Assembly (NCBI GenBank): GCA_013177825.1
Contig: JABLXX010000002.1
Location: 434,001-498,000, forward strand
Direction of reading: 5' to 3'
Source of the DNA: Syntrophaceae bacterium
GTDB lineage: Bacteria; Desulfobacterota; Syntrophia; Syntrophales; PHBD01
DNA length: 64,000 nucleotides
The notes under the pieces are model-generated. The model did not search any database, was not told the DNA's origin, and saw only the letters and a program-made list of their open reading frames with translations. The position numbers were made by a program, and so were the translations under genes. The number at the start of each line of letters is the position of its first letter. The first letter of the stretch is position 1. Shown here in pieces: positions 22,286-31,592 of this stretch.

Positions 22286-23083
22286 ATGACGCCGCTGAAC
22301 GGAAAAACCTTTCAGAACATGCCGGCCGGCGGGAGGTTCGGCCGCCCGCTTCATCTGTTCGGCTCCGTGGAATCCACGAACCTGGCGGCGTTGAAGCTTG
22401 CAGCGGCAGGTGCTCCGGAAGGGACTGCCGTCATCGCCGAAGAACAGACGGCGGGCAGGGGGCGTCTCAACCGGACCTGGCAGTCCCCTCCGGGCTGCAA
22501 CCTGTATCTCTCGCTGGTCCTGAGGCCCGCGGTGGAACCGGCAGCGGCACCCCAGTTGACCCTCTTGGCCGGTGCGGCCGTCGCAAAGGCCCTGAACCGC
22601 TGGTGTCCCGGCATCGTCGGCGTAAAATGGCCGAACGACGTGCTGATCCGGGATCGCAAGGTCTGCGGCATCCTCACGGAGCTCCGGCTCTCCGGCGGAG
22701 GGATCTCCTCGGTGATCGTGGGAATCGGCGTCAACGTGAACATCCGGCGCGAAGAGCTGGATCCGGCATTCCGGGACGCCGCCACGTCGCTCCTGGAGGA
22801 GACCGGGACGGAAACGGACCGGACGGCCGTGGCAGCCGCCCTCCTGGAGGAGCTGGAGAACCTCTACGATCTCTGGATCCGGGAGGGATTCGAAGCGGTT
22901 CGGCCGCACTGGCTGCCCTATTCCGTCCTGACGGGAAAGCGCATCCGGGTCGCATTCCAGGACGAAGTGGAGGAAGGCACCGCAGTGGGGCTGGACGAGG
23001 ACGGAGCGCTGATTCTGGAGGAACCCACGGGCGCCCGGAAGCGCGTCCTGGCGGGAGACGCAACCATCTTGAAGGAGTCCTGA
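22286..23083 (+). CDS. biotin--[acetyl-CoA-carboxylase] ligase without DNA-binding domain
   Basis: This enzyme attaches biotin, via biotinyl-AMP, to a lysine on carboxyl carrier proteins. Its 265 residues correspond to the catalytic and C-terminal SH3-like domains only. The biotinyl-AMP loop GRGRLNRTW, the KWPNDVLI motif and CGILTEL are present. There is no N-terminal winged helix, so it cannot act as a repressor. A second ligase with that domain (birA, 27076-28095) lies 4 kb away. One base separates the stop from coaX, so the two are cotranscribed, a pairing seen in many bacteria. Confidence 0.93.
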
Positions 23084-25910: not shown

Positions 25911-25942
25911 TTATCAACCAGGAAGCACGAATCGGTTGACAA
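25911..25942. promoter_or_regulatory. BirA operator upstream of bioB
   Basis: An inverted repeat TTATCAACC (25911-25919), 14 bp, GGTTGACAA (25934-25942) has the half-site sequence, spacing and orientation of proteobacterial BirA sites (family consensus TTGTAAACC, 14-15 bp, GGTTTACAA). The arms differ by a single base. The right arm contains the -35 hexamer of the bioB promoter, so bound BirA would block RNA polymerase. The regulator with a helix-turn-helix is the second gene of the operon. Confidence 0.85.
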
Positions 25943-25964
25943 TCGGGACGGATTTTCCTATGTA
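25936..25964 (+). promoter_or_regulatory. bioB promoter
   Basis: A perfect TTGACA (25936-25941) is followed after 17 bp by TATGTA (25959-25964). The -10 is only moderate, but the -35 lies within the BirA operator and the distance to the GTG start (25997) leaves a short leader with GGAAGGAA as SD. Confidence 0.65.
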
Positions 25965-25996: not shown

Positions 25997-27079
25997 GTGG
26001 ACGTCATCGACAGGCTGCAGAAGTGGGCGATCAGGAAAGGGGATCTCGGGACGGAAGAAGGACTGGCCCTTTTCGAGGAGGGCATGGGGCGCCCTTTCCG
26101 CCTCATGGCGGCGGCCTCTGAAATCCGCCGGCACTTCAAGGGCGATGCCGTCGGTCTCTGCGTCATCTCCAATGCAAAATCCGGCCGGTGCCCCGAGGAC
26201 TGCGCCTTCTGCGCCCAGTCTTCCCATTATGCAACCGAGGCGGCGATCTATCCGCTGAAGAAGGCGGCGCAGATTGTCGTCGAGGCCGCAGATGCCCGGC
26301 GGGCCGGGGCCGAGATGTTCGGCATCGTCACGAGCGGCAAGCGGATCGGGGTCGCGCGGGAGTGGGCGGAGATCCGGAAGGCCGTCGGCGGAATCAGCGA
26401 CCTGGGCCTCAAGGCCTGTGCCTCCCTGGGGATCCTCGACGCCGGACGGGCGCGGGACCTGAAGGAGGCGGGTCTCTACCGCTACCATCACAACCTGGAG
26501 ACGTCCCGCAGCTTCTTCCCGAAGATCTGTACGACCCACGACTACCAAGAAGACGTGGAAACGATCCGGACGGCGAAGCGGGCCGGACTGTCCGTCTGCT
26601 CGGGCGGGCTGATCGGCCTGGGGGAGGGCGTCACCCACCGGATCGAGATGGCCCTGACCCTGCGGGAACTGGACGTGGACTCGGTGCCGATCAACATCCT
26701 CCATCCCGTTAAGGGAACGCCCCTTGGAGGAAGCAGGCCTCTGCCGCCCCTGGAGATCCTGGTCACCGTCGCCGTGTTCCGCTTTCTCCTGCCGGACCGG
26801 GACCTGAAGCTCTGCGGGGGGAAGGAAAGGAACCTGCGCCAGCTTCTTCCCCTGGGCCTCGTAGCGGGCTGCAACTCCCTGATGACGGGGAATTACCTGA
26901 CGACCACCGGGCGGGAGAGCTCCCTCGACCACGAGATGATCGCGGACCTCGGCCTCCAGCCGACCCGGGAACAGGACCTGTGCCGCTGCGGTGCGGGGGG
27001 AGGGGGGTGCGCCTCCGAATCCTGCGGGACCGTACCCGATCTCCGGTCCCGGAAGGCCCGAAAGGAGCGGATCGCGTGA
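25997..27079 (+). CDS. bioB: biotin synthase, atypical auxiliary-cluster site
   Basis: BioB inserts sulfur into dethiobiotin using S-adenosylmethionine radicals. The radical SAM cluster motif is intact (Cys65, Cys69, Cys72 in GRCPEDCAFC), and HHNLETS and VCSGGLIGLGE are conserved. Of the residues that hold the [2Fe-2S] sulfur donor in E. coli BioB (Cys97, Cys128, Cys188, Arg260), the equivalents of Cys128 and Cys188 are present (Cys141, Cys201). The Cys97 equivalent is Gly109 and the Arg260 equivalent is Lys271. The last 35 residues add four cysteines (329, 331, 338, 343) in a glycine-rich tail. The protein is 360 residues. It starts at GTG 25997 after GGAAGGAA, and its stop overlaps the birA start (GTGA). 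Confidence 0.93.
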   Translation: MDVIDRLQKWAIRKGDLGTEEGLALFEEGMGRPFRLMAAASEIRRHFKGDAVGLCVISNAKSGRCPEDCAFCAQSSHYATEAAIYPLKKAAQIVVEAADARRAGAEMFGIVTSGKRIGVAREWAEIRKAVGGISDLGLKACASLGILDAGRARDLKEAGLYRYHHNLETSRSFFPKICTTHDYQEDVETIRTAKRAGLSVCSGGLIGLGEGVTHRIEMALTLRELDVDSVPINILHPVKGTPLGGSRPLPPLEILVTVAVFRFLLPDRDLKLCGGKERNLRQLLPLGLVAGCNSLMTGNYLTTTGRESSLDHEMIADLGLQPTREQDLCRCGAGGGGCASESCGTVPDLRSRKARKERIA

Positions 27080-28095
27080 CGGCAGCCGGTTCCGGATCCG
27101 TTTCGGGAAGGGAGCTCCTGCTGCTCCACTTGAAGCAGGGCCGGGGGGCCTGGGTCTCCGGCCAGTTCCTGAGCGAGCGGATGGCCATGACCCGGTCCGC
27201 CGTCTGGAAGCAGATCGGCGCCCTGAAGGCGGACGGATACGTGATCGAGTCGTCCACCCGCAAGGGGTACCGTCTCATCGGCGTTCCCGATCTGCTCCGG
27301 ATCGAAGAGGTGCGGGACGGGCTTCGGACGCGGGTCCTGGGACGGACGGAGGCCCGGCATTACCGGGAGACCGATTCCACGAACTCCAGGGCCCGGGAGC
27401 TGGCCGCCGGGGGAGCCCCGGAGGGGACGCTGGTGGTGGCGGAGGAGCAGAGCAGCGGGCGGGGAAGAAGGGAGCGAACCTGGTTTTCGCCTCCCTTCCT
27501 GGGAATCTATGCATCCCTGGTCCTGCGGCCCTCCATTCCGCCCGGCGAGGCGCCCCGCATGGCCATCCTGGCAGCGGTGGCCGTGGCCGACGCCCTCCGT
27601 TCGGAGACGGGCCTCCCGGTGACCATCAAGTGGCCCAACGACATCCTGGCGGGGGGGCGGAAGATCGCCGGCATCCTCATGGAACTGGCCACGGACATGG
27701 GCGCCGTCGACTACCTGGTGATCGGTACGGGGATCAACGTGAACGTTCCGGCCGGAGTGTTCCCACGGGAGATCCGCCCCCTGGCGACGAGCGTCCTCGT
27801 CGAGACGGGGAAGCCGTTTCCGCGGGTGCGGCTGTTGCGCCGCTGTCTCGAATCATTCGAATCCTGCTGCGATCTCTTCGCGGCGGAGGGGTTCTCCCCC
27901 CTCCTGGCGCGCTGGAAGTCCATGAGCAGCATGATCGGAAAACCGGTCGTCGTCCATGTCCCCGGCCGGGACCTGGCGGGCATTGTGGCCGATATCGATG
28001 AAAACGGGTTTCTGCTGCTCCGGGACGACGGGGGCCGCGACCACCGGATCTTCTCCGGCGATGTGACCCTCCCGACTGGAATCGAGAAAGGATAA
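27076..28095 (+). CDS. birA: bifunctional biotin ligase / biotin operon repressor
   Basis: This 339-residue protein has an N-terminal winged helix-turn-helix (about 10-70: SERMAMTRSAVWKQIGALKA, then STRKGYRL), followed by the ligase core (EEQSSGRGRRERTW, IKWPNDILAGG, KIAGILMEL) and the C-terminal SH3-like domain. It is predicted to biotinylate carboxylases and, as a biotinyl-AMP-bound dimer, to bind the operator at 25911-25942 and repress its own operon. Its GTG overlaps the bioB stop, with AAAGGAGCGG as SD. It is one of two biotin ligases in the window and the only one with a DNA-binding domain. Confidence 0.95.
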   Translation: MTAAGSGSVSGRELLLLHLKQGRGAWVSGQFLSERMAMTRSAVWKQIGALKADGYVIESSTRKGYRLIGVPDLLRIEEVRDGLRTRVLGRTEARHYRETDSTNSRARELAAGGAPEGTLVVAEEQSSGRGRRERTWFSPPFLGIYASLVLRPSIPPGEAPRMAILAAVAVADALRSETGLPVTIKWPNDILAGGRKIAGILMELATDMGAVDYLVIGTGINVNVPAGVFPREIRPLATSVLVETGKPFPRVRLLRRCLESFESCCDLFAAEGFSPLLARWKSMSSMIGKPVVVHVPGRDLAGIVADIDENGFLLLRDDGGRDHRIFSGDVTLPTGIEKG

Positions 28096-28102
28096 CGCTG
28101 CA

Positions 28103-28639
28103 ATGGCAAAACGCGAAACCTCGCTCCGCGGCATGGCCTATGCCGCAATGTTCGGCGCCCTGACGGCCTTGGGGGCCTACATCATGATTCCCCTGCCCCC
28201 GGTGCCGGTGACGATGCAGACTTTTTTTGTCTTCCTGTCGGGATCCCTCCTGGGAGGATACCTGGGGGCCATGAGTCAGGTGGTTTACATCCTGCTGGGC
28301 GTCATCGGCCTGCCCGTCTTCGCCGGGGGAAAGGCCGGGGCGGGGGTCCTCCTCGGGCCGACCGGAGGATATCTGATCGGATTCGTCCTCGGCGCCTATG
28401 TCCTGGGCCGGCTGGCGGACCCCCGGGTCAAGCCCGGGTTCTTCGTGCTTCTCGTCTGCATGTTCACGGGGCTGGTCGTGATCTATGCGTGCGGCGTGAT
28501 TCAGCTGATGTACGTGGCCAAACTCGGCCTTCGCAAGGCCCTGATTGTGGGCGTCCTGCCCCCCCTGCCGGGGGACGCCGTGAAGATGGTTGTTGCGGCC
28601 CTGATCACCGTGCGGATCCGGCGCTACCTGAAACTTTGA
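28103..28639 (+). CDS. bioY: biotin transporter S component
   Basis: BioY is the membrane subunit that binds biotin. The 178 residues form about six hydrophobic helices with the family pattern: IPLPPVPVTMQTFFVFLSG, GGYLGAMSQVVYILLGVIGLPVF and GPTGGYLIGF. With the ATPase and transmembrane coupling subunits encoded next, it makes a complete ECF-type importer. It starts 7 bp after birA. Confidence 0.95.
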   Translation: MAKRETSLRGMAYAAMFGALTALGAYIMIPLPPVPVTMQTFFVFLSGSLLGGYLGAMSQVVYILLGVIGLPVFAGGKAGAGVLLGPTGGYLIGFVLGAYVLGRLADPRVKPGFFVLLVCMFTGLVVIYACGVIQLMYVAKLGLRKALIVGVLPPLPGDAVKMVVAALITVRIRRYLKL

Positions 28640-28655: not shown

Positions 28656-29498
28656 ATGATCGTTCTGAACAAGGTTTCATTTCGCTACGGGGAGGACGGT
28701 CCGGAGGTCCTCCGTAACGTGGACCTCCGCCTCGGCGAGGGAGAATACGTCGCCCTGGCCGGGCACAACGGCTGCGGGAAGAGCACGCTCCTGAAGCATC
28801 TGAACGCCCTCCTCGTTCCGACGGAGGGGACCGTGACCGTGGACGGTCTCGATACCCGGGACGCTTCCTCGCAGCGCGGGATCCGCCGGGCCGTGGGCAT
28901 GGTGTTCCAGAACCCGGATCACCAGATCGTAGGCATGACCGTGGAGGAGGACGTGGCCTTCGGCCCGGCCAATCTGGCCCTGCCGCCCCGGGAGGTCCGG
29001 GAGTGCGTGGCGGATGCCTTGGCCCGGGTGGGGCTGGAGGGGTACGAATCGCGGGCTCCCCATACGCTTTCCGGCGGAGAGAAGCGGCTCGTTTCCATCG
29101 CCGGGGTCCTGGCCATGAAACCGCGCTTCATCGCCTTTGACGAGCCGACTGCCTATCTCGATCCCGTCTCCCGGCGGCGAGTCCTCGACCTCATCGCGGG
29201 GCTCCACAGCCAGGGCATGGGCATTCTCCACGTGACGCACAGCATCGGCAACGTAGCGGACGCCGACCGGCTCCTGGTCATGGAGCGGGGATCGATCGCC
29301 CTGGACGACAGTCCGGAGGCCGCCTGCGCCGTTCTGGCGTCGGGGCGATTCCCCGGGCTGGAGGCCCCCCCCGTTGCGGTCCTGATGGCGGAGCTGAAAA
29401 ACCTCGGGTGGGGGGTAAACGCAAACGTCCTGTCCGTCCCGGAGGCCTGCCGGGAGATCGATGCCTGCCTTGCCCGGCATCCCGGAGAACGCCCGTAA
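28656..29498 (+). CDS. bioM: biotin ECF transporter ATPase
   Basis: This is the energising ATPase (BioM/EcfA) of the biotin importer. The 280 residues have Walker A GHNGCGKSTLLKH, Q-loop FQNPDHQIVG, the signature LSGGEKRLVSIAG, Walker B FIAFDEPTAYLD and a switch histidine in HVTHSIGN. A single ATPase gene is present, as is usual for dedicated BioMNY systems. Its stop and the next start share a base (TAATG). Confidence 0.94.
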   Translation: MIVLNKVSFRYGEDGPEVLRNVDLRLGEGEYVALAGHNGCGKSTLLKHLNALLVPTEGTVTVDGLDTRDASSQRGIRRAVGMVFQNPDHQIVGMTVEEDVAFGPANLALPPREVRECVADALARVGLEGYESRAPHTLSGGEKRLVSIAGVLAMKPRFIAFDEPTAYLDPVSRRRVLDLIAGLHSQGMGILHVTHSIGNVADADRLLVMERGSIALDDSPEAACAVLASGRFPGLEAPPVAVLMAELKNLGWGVNANVLSVPEACREIDACLARHPGERP

Positions 29499-30292
29499 TG
29501 AAGCATTTCCGGTTCGGCCTCTTCGTCCCCGGCGACTCGTCCCTCCACCGCCTCGACCCGCGGGTCAAGATCGTCTCCGTCGTCGTCCTCGGCGTCCTCT
29601 CATTCCGGGCGTCCGCAGGGGCGGCGACCCTGGTCACGCTTCTCCTCCTGGTCCTGACGGGTCTTTCCGGCCTGCGGCCGCGCCATATCCTGGACGCCCT
29701 GAAGCCCCTGATGGTCTTCGCCGCACTCCTGTTTCTCATCCATCTTTTCTTTACCGACGGAGAGGCCCTGGTGTCCCTTTCCGCGGGGCCGTTCCGGATC
29801 ACCCGGGAGGGACTGCGTCAGGGCGGATTCGTCGTCTGGCAGTTCTTCGCCCTGGTTTCCATGGGCGTTCTGCTGACCATGACGACCGGACCGTCCGACC
29901 TGGTCGCCGCCCTGGAGAATATCCTGAGCCCGCTGAAAGTTCTCCGCGTTCCCACACAGGACCTGGCGATCATGGTCTCCCTGGCCCTGCGGTTTCTGCC
30001 GACCTTCCTGGAGGAAATGGAAAAGCTGAAGACGGCCCGCCTCGCCCGGGGGGCCGACTGGCGGCGGGGAGGATCTGTCCACAGGGTAAAGACCGCGGCA
30101 TCCCTTTTGGTGCCTCTCCTGCTGGGAGCGGCGCGAAGGGCCGACGATCTCGCGGAGGCCATGGAGGCCCGGGGCTACGCCCGGGGGCCCCGGACGGGAC
30201 TCCGGGAGCTGCGCATGGCCCGGCCGGATTATGCCGCCCTGGTTATTCTCACGGTGTTTTCGGGCATGGTTCTGGTGGCGGGGTTGCTCTGA
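29498..30292 (+). CDS. bioN: biotin ECF transporter T component
   Basis: BioN/EcfT links the ATPase to BioY in the membrane. The 264 residues include several hydrophobic helices. The two cytoplasmic coupling motifs with Ala-Arg-Gly are ARLARGADWRRGG and AMEARGYARGP. Translation is coupled to bioM through TAATG. It ends the biotin operon; no clear terminator is seen, only an 8-bp hairpin without a T run at 30506-30524, which overlaps the convergent rdgC stop. Confidence 0.92.
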   Translation: MKHFRFGLFVPGDSSLHRLDPRVKIVSVVVLGVLSFRASAGAATLVTLLLLVLTGLSGLRPRHILDALKPLMVFAALLFLIHLFFTDGEALVSLSAGPFRITREGLRQGGFVVWQFFALVSMGVLLTMTTGPSDLVAALENILSPLKVLRVPTQDLAIMVSLALRFLPTFLEEMEKLKTARLARGADWRRGGSVHRVKTAASLLVPLLLGAARRADDLAEAMEARGYARGPRTGLRELRMARPDYAALVILTVFSGMVLVAGLL

Positions 30293-30505: not shown

Positions 30506-30524
30506 TAGCGAGCGTGGCTCGCTA
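30506..30524. other. short perfect inverted repeat between bioN and rdgC
   Basis: TAGCGAGC (30506-30513), GTG, GCTCGCTA (30517-30524) is a perfect 8-bp hairpin in the gap between the converging bioN and rdgC genes. The right end is the rdgC stop codon. It has no T run on either strand and may be a weak bidirectional stop or a chance palindrome. The rest of the gap (30293-30505) shows nothing recognisable. Confidence 0.4.
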
Positions 30525-31592
30525 TGGCTGGAGCCAGCGGGTCATCCGGGGGATCTCCTCGGCCGTCCAGGCGGGGGTCCGGCGGATGGCGAAGAAGAGG
30601 GCGAAGAGACGCTCCATGACGGCGACGGCCTGCTCCGTAAGGTGGATGCGCTCCAGGAGCCGTCCCGCCTCGTCCTTCATCCCCGTCTCCTCCTCCGAGT
30701 CGGCCGGGAGTTTCATGGACTGGAAACGGAACCGGTCCGCCTTGAAGGTGAACTCCCAGACGTCCGCATCCTGCCTCAGAGACAGGCGGGCCTCCCGGAT
30801 CTTCTTGCCGCGCCGGAGGGCCTCCCGGCCTTCCTTCAGCTCTGCGTTCAGTCCGTGGCAGACCACCGTTTCCGCATAGTCCCCCTCGCCGCCCTCGAGG
30901 ACGACGCGCCGGATGAATGCCAGTTCCACCTCCTCCTTGCTGTTCAGGGCGATGGTGCCGGCCCGCTCCTCGCTTTTGAACCAGAGCCACGTCAGGAATT
31001 CCCGGCCCAGGGAAAAGGGAGCCGGTCCCTCGGGGCCGAGGGCCGCCGCGGCTTCGTCCCAGGGGTTGTAGGGTTCGAGGATCGTGGAGAAGGTGTCACG
31101 GAAGAGCAGTGTGAAATCGTCGCAGATCTTGTCCGTATGCGTGCAGAAGAGGACCCGTTTCTCCGGGAGGAACCAGCAGGCCTCATACAGGGCGGGGACA
31201 GCCGGGGCGCCGGCCAGGAGCTCCTCCCGGACCGTCTCCCGGAGCAAGCCCTGCTGGTGGCGGCTGAGGCGCTCCTGCTTGTTTTCTTCCTTGACGCGCC
31301 TTTGGGCCTCGAGGGTCCGGAAGCGGAGCAGGGCGGGGGAAATCTGTTTCCGGTCGATCCGGAGGCAGAACAGGGCCAAGTGCCCCCGCACGGGGGGATA
31401 ACGGCTGAAATCCCGATCCAGGATGTCCTCCAGGCCGGTCCAGCCGATCGTTTTTTCCTCCGAGCGGGAGACGGCCTCCCGGAAGGAGAAGGACCGCAGC
31501 CGGTCCGTCAGGACTTCCGGGTCCGGGGGTGCGGGGGCCTCGCGGGTTGGCCGGAACAGGGAAAAAGTGAGGGGACCTTTCTGGATGGGCAT
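30522..31592 (-). CDS. rdgC: recombination-associated protein RdgC family
   Basis: RdgC is a ring-forming DNA-binding protein that limits RecA activity. This 356-residue protein shows the family N-terminus (QKGPLTFSLFRPTR, then FSFREAVSRSEEKTIGWTGL) and a middle region with EACWFLPEKRVLFCTHTDKI and EFLTWLWFKSEE. GGAGG lies six bases ahead of the ATG. It is divergent from nadK and recN; recN is another repair gene, so this stretch has a DNA-repair flavour. The family assignment is from motif memory. Confidence 0.82.
   Translation of the reverse strand: MPIQKGPLTFSLFRPTREAPAPPDPEVLTDRLRSFSFREAVSRSEEKTIGWTGLEDILDRDFSRYPPVRGHLALFCLRIDRKQISPALLRFRTLEAQRRVKEENKQERLSRHQQGLLRETVREELLAGAPAVPALYEACWFLPEKRVLFCTHTDKICDDFTLLFRDTFSTILEPYNPWDEAAAALGPEGPAPFSLGREFLTWLWFKSEERAGTIALNSKEEVELAFIRRVVLEGGEGDYAETVVCHGLNAELKEGREALRRGKKIREARLSLRQDADVWEFTFKADRFRFQSMKLPADSEEETGMKDEAGRLLERIHLTEQAVAVMERLFALFFAIRRTPAWTAEEIPRMTRWLQP

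Follow-up and report, generated by a model that had tools for sequence, protein, structure and literature searches.

A putative type II biotin synthase with a clade-specific CxC tail, encoded at the head of a biotin operon in a Syntrophaceae bacterium

How would a biotin synthase hold its auxiliary iron-sulfur cluster when two of the classical ligands are missing and four cysteines have been added at its C-terminus? In the Escherichia coli enzyme (BioB) the auxiliary site is formed by Cys97, Cys128, Cys188 and Arg260, and Ser43 is listed among the residues around the [2Fe-2S] cluster (PMC11099021). The question is raised by a bioB gene located in a 64,000-nucleotide stretch of the genome of a Syntrophaceae bacterium (hereafter the window). 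An initial annotation of this DNA described its product (the window BioB) as having an intact radical SAM motif and equivalents of Cys128 and Cys188, with Gly109 and Lys271 at the positions of Cys97 and Arg260, and proposed that it is either a member of the anaerobe class of biotin synthases that use a [4Fe-5S] cluster or a variant in which the tail cysteines serve as ligands. The features of the gene up to the end of the catalytic domain are as follows.

25997..27079, forward strand: bioB, assigned to the type II biotin synthases, 360 amino acids, GTG start (TIGR00433, Pfam Radical_SAM and BATS, PDB matches)
26159..26161, forward strand: Cys55 (E. coli Ser43), candidate auxiliary-cluster ligand from its conservation in relatives
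26189..26212, forward strand: Cys65, Cys69 and Cys72, radical SAM CX3CX2C motif
26321..26323, forward strand: Gly109, at the position of E. coli Cys97
26417..26419, forward strand: Cys141 (E. coli Cys128), candidate auxiliary ligand
26528..26530, forward strand: Cys178 (E. coli Ile165), candidate auxiliary ligand
26597..26599, forward strand: Cys201 (E. coli Cys188), candidate auxiliary ligand
26807..26815, forward strand: Lys271 (E. coli Arg260 position) and Cys273 (E. coli Ser262)

Ligand positions were tabulated from an alignment of the window BioB with 233 relatives and with an E. coli BioB reference sequence that matches the stretch of 1r30 shown in the PDB alignment. The alignment bore out every residue number given before: radical SAM cysteines 65, 69 and 72 are intact, Cys128 and Cys188 correspond to Cys141 and Cys201, Gly109 and Lys271 occupy the Cys97 and Arg260 sites, and no cysteine falls on the Cys97 site. 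That inventory was nevertheless incomplete, as it had passed over three conserved cysteines of the catalytic domain (Cys55, Cys178 and Cys273), the first two of which identify the class of the enzyme. The tail cysteines 329, 331, 338 and 343 were likewise confirmed, and all four are found at identical positions in the BioB of the sister species (G001), which is 88% identical overall. The stop codon of bioB overlaps the start of birA in a GTGA (27076-27079), the ribosome-binding sequence of birA lying inside bioB. The retention of the tail in the sister species and the overlap with birA together show that the reading frame is real to its end and rule out a frame-shift artefact as the source of the tail.

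Several lines of evidence place the window BioB among the type II enzymes. It contains the Pfam domains Radical_SAM and BATS and scores 376 bits against the curated profile TIGR00433 (cut-off 225). In a sequence search of the PDB, 8vdw (E 7e-86) and 8vcw (3e-63) outranked E. coli 1r30 (9e-54), and a fold search with the AF2 model (pLDDT 84, pTM 0.84) gave the same order, with 8vdw (TMt 0.92) and 8vcw (TMt 0.88) ranking first. The fold-search titles name these entries as the BioBs of Veillonella parvula and Blautia obeum, respectively, both released in January 2024; from species and date, they are presumably the structures of the type II BioB study (JACS 2024). At the positions of residues 55, 141, 178 and 201 of the window BioB both have cysteine, and at 109 serine; Cys55 and Cys178 are thus common to the three proteins and are lacking in E. 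coli. The nearest named relatives are Syntrophaceae, Syntrophus and deltaproteobacterial MAGs, groups generally regarded as anaerobic, so that the host is presumably an anaerobe as well. PMC11138216 and PMC11099021, citing the JACS 2024 study, state that the cluster used by biotin synthases from obligate anaerobes is of the [4Fe-5S] type and includes a ligated sulfide. Sequence and predicted fold together give good support to the assignment of the window BioB to this type II ([4Fe-5S]-class) group, which was the first of the two earlier proposals, the cluster type being predicted from class membership.

The type I signature (Cys97, Cys128, Cys188, Arg260) is interrupted in the window BioB by Gly109 and Lys271, as expected for a member of the known anaerobe class. 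These two absences are not a matter of chance, but they are not exceptional either: only 12 of the 233 relatives have cysteine at the Cys97 site (Gly in 127, Ser in 90), and the 260 site is variable (R 59, K 52, T 34, I 22, and also S, L and V). Both 8vdw and 8vcw have arginine there, and the 31 proteins that bear a tail like that of the window BioB have K (22) or R (9) at position 271. Because this residue varies freely among type II relatives, the Arg260 site does not seem to define the class. Cys273, the cysteine of an LCGG motif two residues from the Arg260 site, occurs in 207 of 233 relatives and is Ala in 8vdw and 8vcw.

Four cysteines of the barrel, Cys55, Cys141, Cys178 and Cys201, are most likely the auxiliary ligands of the window BioB, judging from their conservation, so that neither Cys97 nor Arg260 would be needed. 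Cys201 is invariant (233/233), Cys55 is cysteine in all 232 relatives that have a residue there (Ser in E. coli) and Cys178 in 230 of 233 (Ile in E. coli). Position 141 is more variable, with Cys in 171 relatives, Ser, Ala or Gly in 57 (Desulfuromonadia) and Asp in 5. In all 57 proteins with S/A/G at 141, position 107 (E. coli Arg95) is cysteine, as against 5 of 171 otherwise. The full sets are C55+C141+C178+C201 in 151 relatives and C55+C107+C178+C201 in 57 (including L134-L163, L068, L071, L072 and L075-L077), with Asp141 in 5. Seen across these aligned proteins, the barrel site reads as three fixed cysteines and one movable fourth ligand. On the tree, Cys141 was lost only once or twice, and the exchange between 141 and 107 is therefore a clade-level pattern, not a repeated event. 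The survey suggests that the fourth protein ligand is kept by exchange between these two barrel positions, and the natural variants provide a ready-made set for testing which residues hold the cluster. Aspartate at the Cys128 position is found in BioBs of Planctomycetota, Verrucomicrobia, Omnitrophota and Poribacteria (L110, L121, L129, L131, L133), where it is a possible ligand.

The remaining part of the protein is the tail, whose features are listed below.

26960..27076, forward strand: C-terminal tail, residues 322-360 (AF2 pLDDT)
26981..26989, forward strand: CxC motif of the tail, Cys329 and Cys331
27008..27025, forward strand: Cys338 (the variable third cysteine) and Cys343 (aligned only in the window genome G000 and in G001, i.e., the genus of the window)

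All 31 proteins of one clade have the CxC pair, which lies about 12 residues past the last helix. On a FastTree phylogeny built with the tail columns excluded, the CxC tail appears as a single change that marks exactly one clade in the sample (local support 99). The 14 residues that follow it average 18% identity among the 31 tail-bearing proteins, compared with 72% for the barrel. A third cysteine occurs in 25 of the 31, most commonly as CxC-x7-C (18/31), the genus of the window having CxC-x6-C plus Cys343, and the tails often end in Lys/Arg-rich segments. In the AF2 model of the window BioB, pLDDT is about 80 for residues 321-330 and below 50 from 332, which predicts disorder beyond 331. The dN/dS ratio is about 0.19 for residues 322-345, equal to that of the barrel on a count of only 10 substitutions, and about 0.74 for residues 346-360, i.e., the distal tail evolves fast. 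A Pfam scan of 26 close relatives gave no credible match in the tail; the resemblance to a SEC-C zinc motif (CxCxSGKK) seen in two relatives was discarded for the same reason. Conservation in orthologues, on which the tail proposal had been made to depend, is divided: the CxC is kept throughout its clade and close relatives outside it that share the barrel cysteines are tail-less (L007, L010, L011, L061-L066, L102, L164-L176). The Desulfuromonadia have a different, shorter tail, in which 52 of 57 proteins end in a conserved cysteine (ETCS, APCGCS, EGCCE; e.g., L134, L135, L136) soon after the last helix; the model of a Desulfuromonadia protein is well ordered to this cysteine-bearing end (mean pLDDT 93.5, last block 79).

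What the tail does has to be judged against this background. The second of the earlier proposals, that tail cysteines replace Cys97 and Arg260 as ligands of the auxiliary cluster, draws on the actual absence of these two residues, on the invariance of the CxC in its clade and on the C-terminal cysteine of the 52 Desulfuromonadia proteins without Cys141, which at one stage seemed proof that a tail can replace a lost ligand. However, the window BioB has the full set of type II barrel cysteines without calling on its tail, the tail-less L007, L010 and L011 share that site, and Cys107 accompanies S/A/G at 141 in every case, including five proteins devoid of tail cysteines; it is thus apparently Cys107 that stands in for Cys141, and a ligand from the tail is probably not required. 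The correlation between loss of Cys141 and tail cysteines is not independent evidence either, given its one or two origins. The proposal was set aside as very improbable, and the CxC probably lies outside the ligand set of the auxiliary cluster. A neutral or fortuitous tail would agree with the tail-less close relatives, whose site is otherwise identical, with the rapid evolution of residues 346-360 and with the variability of the third and fourth cysteines; against this, the CxC has never been lost in 31 species and residues 322-345 evolve as slowly as the barrel, so a neutral tail is unlikely. On the aligned sequences, the CxC pair is under strong constraint and is too conserved to be dismissed as decoration.

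The tail is best viewed as a lineage-specific appendage whose CxC would probably form a peripheral metal- or sulfur-handling site, for instance one helping to rebuild the auxiliary cluster. A more specific version, by analogy with the actinobacterial helper protein BsaP, is that the tail acts as a built-in helper for replenishment of the auxiliary cluster or its sulfide, either as an arm that transfers persulfide or Fe-S or as a 2 x CxC metal site that bridges the dimer. Complete conservation of the CxC within a poorly conserved flank, the usual third cysteine and frequent Lys/Arg-rich ends are consistent with such a role, and BsaP itself is a precedent showing that a helper of this kind can exist (PMC11099021). 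However, the tail contains no Pfam domain, its part past residue 331 is predicted to be disordered and the spacing in BsaP is CxxC...C and not CxC, no homology being claimed; the helper role is put forward as the leading, though tentative, possibility. A still more doubtful reading makes the CxC tail an arm devoted to sulfur or Fe-S repair, perhaps dimer-bridging through 2 x CxC, which would put back the sulfide consumed from the [4Fe-5S] cluster between one turnover and the next. In that case, the CxC-tailed BioB of this clade would be a self-repairing, multi-turnover biotin synthase. It has long been asked how biotin synthase recovers the sulfur that it sacrifices, and deleting a conserved cysteine arm that is confined to a single natural clade would be a clean test.

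The genomic context of the gene indicates how the enzyme may be used. In the window, bioB heads the operon bioB-birA-bioY-ecfA-ecfT, which is preceded by putative control elements.

25911..25942, forward strand: BirA-type operator TTATCAACC-N14-GGTTGACAA upstream of bioB (palindrome score; also found as an inverted repeat)
25936..25964, forward strand: promoter-like TTGACA (25936-25941), 17-base spacer and TATGTA (25959-25964), predicted from reading the sequence
27076..28095, forward strand: birA, biotin-protein ligase with N-terminal HTH, likely start 27076 (Pfam HTH_11 and BPL; NCBIfam BirA models)
28103..28639, forward strand: bioY, biotin-family substrate-binding ECF component (PF02632 BioY, E 3.5e-46)
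28656..29498, forward strand: ecfA, transporter ATPase (PF00005; TIGR04520 282.8 bits, just under the cut-off of 315)
29408..30292, forward strand: ecfT, transmembrane component, true start perhaps further downstream (PF02361 CbiQ, E 8.9e-42)

At least nine relatives (G001, G033, G045, G063, G065, G059, G133, G151, G154) have this arrangement, either intact or as far as their contig extends. The operator matches 17 of 18 positions of the palindromic consensus (best of 200 shuffles, 14), and the promoter-like pair overlaps its right half. Upstream of bioB, the palindrome recurs with scores of 15-18 of 18 in L060 and in the relatives that have the operon, and also in L265, a relative whose stretch read does not include the operon; in the remaining relatives read, the score does not exceed 14. 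A BirA box of the form TTGTAAACC-N15-GGTTTACAA was not matched with up to three mismatches; the form with a 14-base spacer fits. No Rfam match to an RNA leader was found upstream. In the genome G066, to which L060 belongs, birA and ecfA/ecfT beside the CxC-tailed bioB look degraded and bioY was not found; this genome carries further bioB copies plus bioA and bioD. The window also encodes a second biotin-protein ligase about 4 kb away, lacking the HTH repressor domain (22286-23083, as compared with 27076-28095, which has it), both being present in the sister species. A 356-amino acid protein with a marginal RdgC match (E 8e-6) is encoded on the reverse strand (30522-31592) and adjoins the biotin operon in the sister species too.

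The window genome, which is 100% complete, contains no bioD, no bioF beyond E 1e-5 and, for bioA, only aminotransferases below the cut-off; the absence of these genes implies dethiobiotin salvage. BioB-only genomes are known, mostly with BioY, and have been read in this way (PMC6593275). In G000 and G001 a BioB-only pathway with a linked BioY-ECF transporter is accordingly predicted, as a case of dethiobiotin salvage in an environmental lineage. The tail itself is not tied to salvage, since in other clade members (e.g., G091, contig 3, 302935-307574; G106) the CxC-tailed bioB clusters with bioA, bioD and bioF, which also argues that the tailed enzyme is the biotin synthase of the pathway. Within the clade, 9 of 10 genomes with the operon lack bioD (Fisher p = 0.16), and no association is claimed. 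In G066, G073, G091, G094 and G106 a second, distant BioB (about 41-45% identical) occurs beside the CxC-tailed copy.

The missing bioF, bioA and bioD could also suggest that the window protein is a BioB-like radical SAM enzyme with another function. This is extremely improbable in view of its equivalog-level TIGR00433 score, the invariance among the relatives surveyed of the dethiobiotin-site residues Asn153 and Asn222 (E. coli numbering), the operon with BioY under predicted BirA control and the orthologues clustered with complete bio genes; a BioB-only genome with BioY is moreover an already known pattern (PMC6593275). The window BioB would then convert dethiobiotin to biotin. SAM would be cleaved at the [4Fe-4S] cluster of Cys65, Cys69 and Cys72, a step established for the family, and sulfur would be inserted from a 4Fe auxiliary cluster at Cys55, Cys141, Cys178 and Cys201, as predicted by homology to type II enzymes. 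Expression of the operon would be controlled by BirA at the operator, and dethiobiotin would be supplied through BioY-EcfAT.

Taken together, it is very probable that the locus encodes a type II BioB with a barrel-held auxiliary cluster and a peripheral, lineage-specific CxC tail, within a BirA-controlled salvage operon. The class of the enzyme is already known; the novelty that remains is the well-conserved CxC tail of one clade and the swap of a candidate ligand found elsewhere in the family.

Compared with known systems, the window BioB is closest to the enzymes of V. parvula (8vdw) and B. obeum (8vcw), with which it shares the radical SAM motif, cysteines 55, 141, 178 and 201, the lack of a cysteine at the Cys97 site, the fold and a presumably anaerobic lineage; it differs from them in having Lys at the 260 site, a cysteine (Cys273) where they have Ala, and the 39-residue CxC tail. 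With E. coli type I BioB (1r30) it has in common the fold, the radical SAM motif, the equivalents of Cys128 and Cys188, and Asn153 and Asn222, whereas it lacks Cys97 and Arg260, has cysteine at the Ser43 and Ile165 positions, and shows His and Glu in place of Asn151 and Asp155. Mycobacterial BioB depends on BsaP, a protein with conserved arginines and three conserved cysteines, and in Pseudonocardia BsaP and BioB form a single fused protein (PMC11099021). What the window BioB has in common with these systems is that a further element carrying cysteines and Arg/Lys accompanies the enzyme; however, BsaP is a separate, larger protein with CxxC...C as opposed to the CxC-x6-C of the window tail, and BsaP-dependent actinobacterial BioBs have Ala at Cys128 (PMC11099021). 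By its retained Cys141 and its CxC spacing, the window BioB is neither a BsaP-dependent enzyme nor a BioB-BsaP fusion. Finally, the BioB-only (A1) salvage variant also combines BioB and BirA with BioY in the absence of BioF, BioA and BioD (PMC6593275); that variant was described from human gut genomes, whereas in the Syntrophaceae-related bacteria considered here these genes are joined in a single operon preceded by a BirA-type operator.
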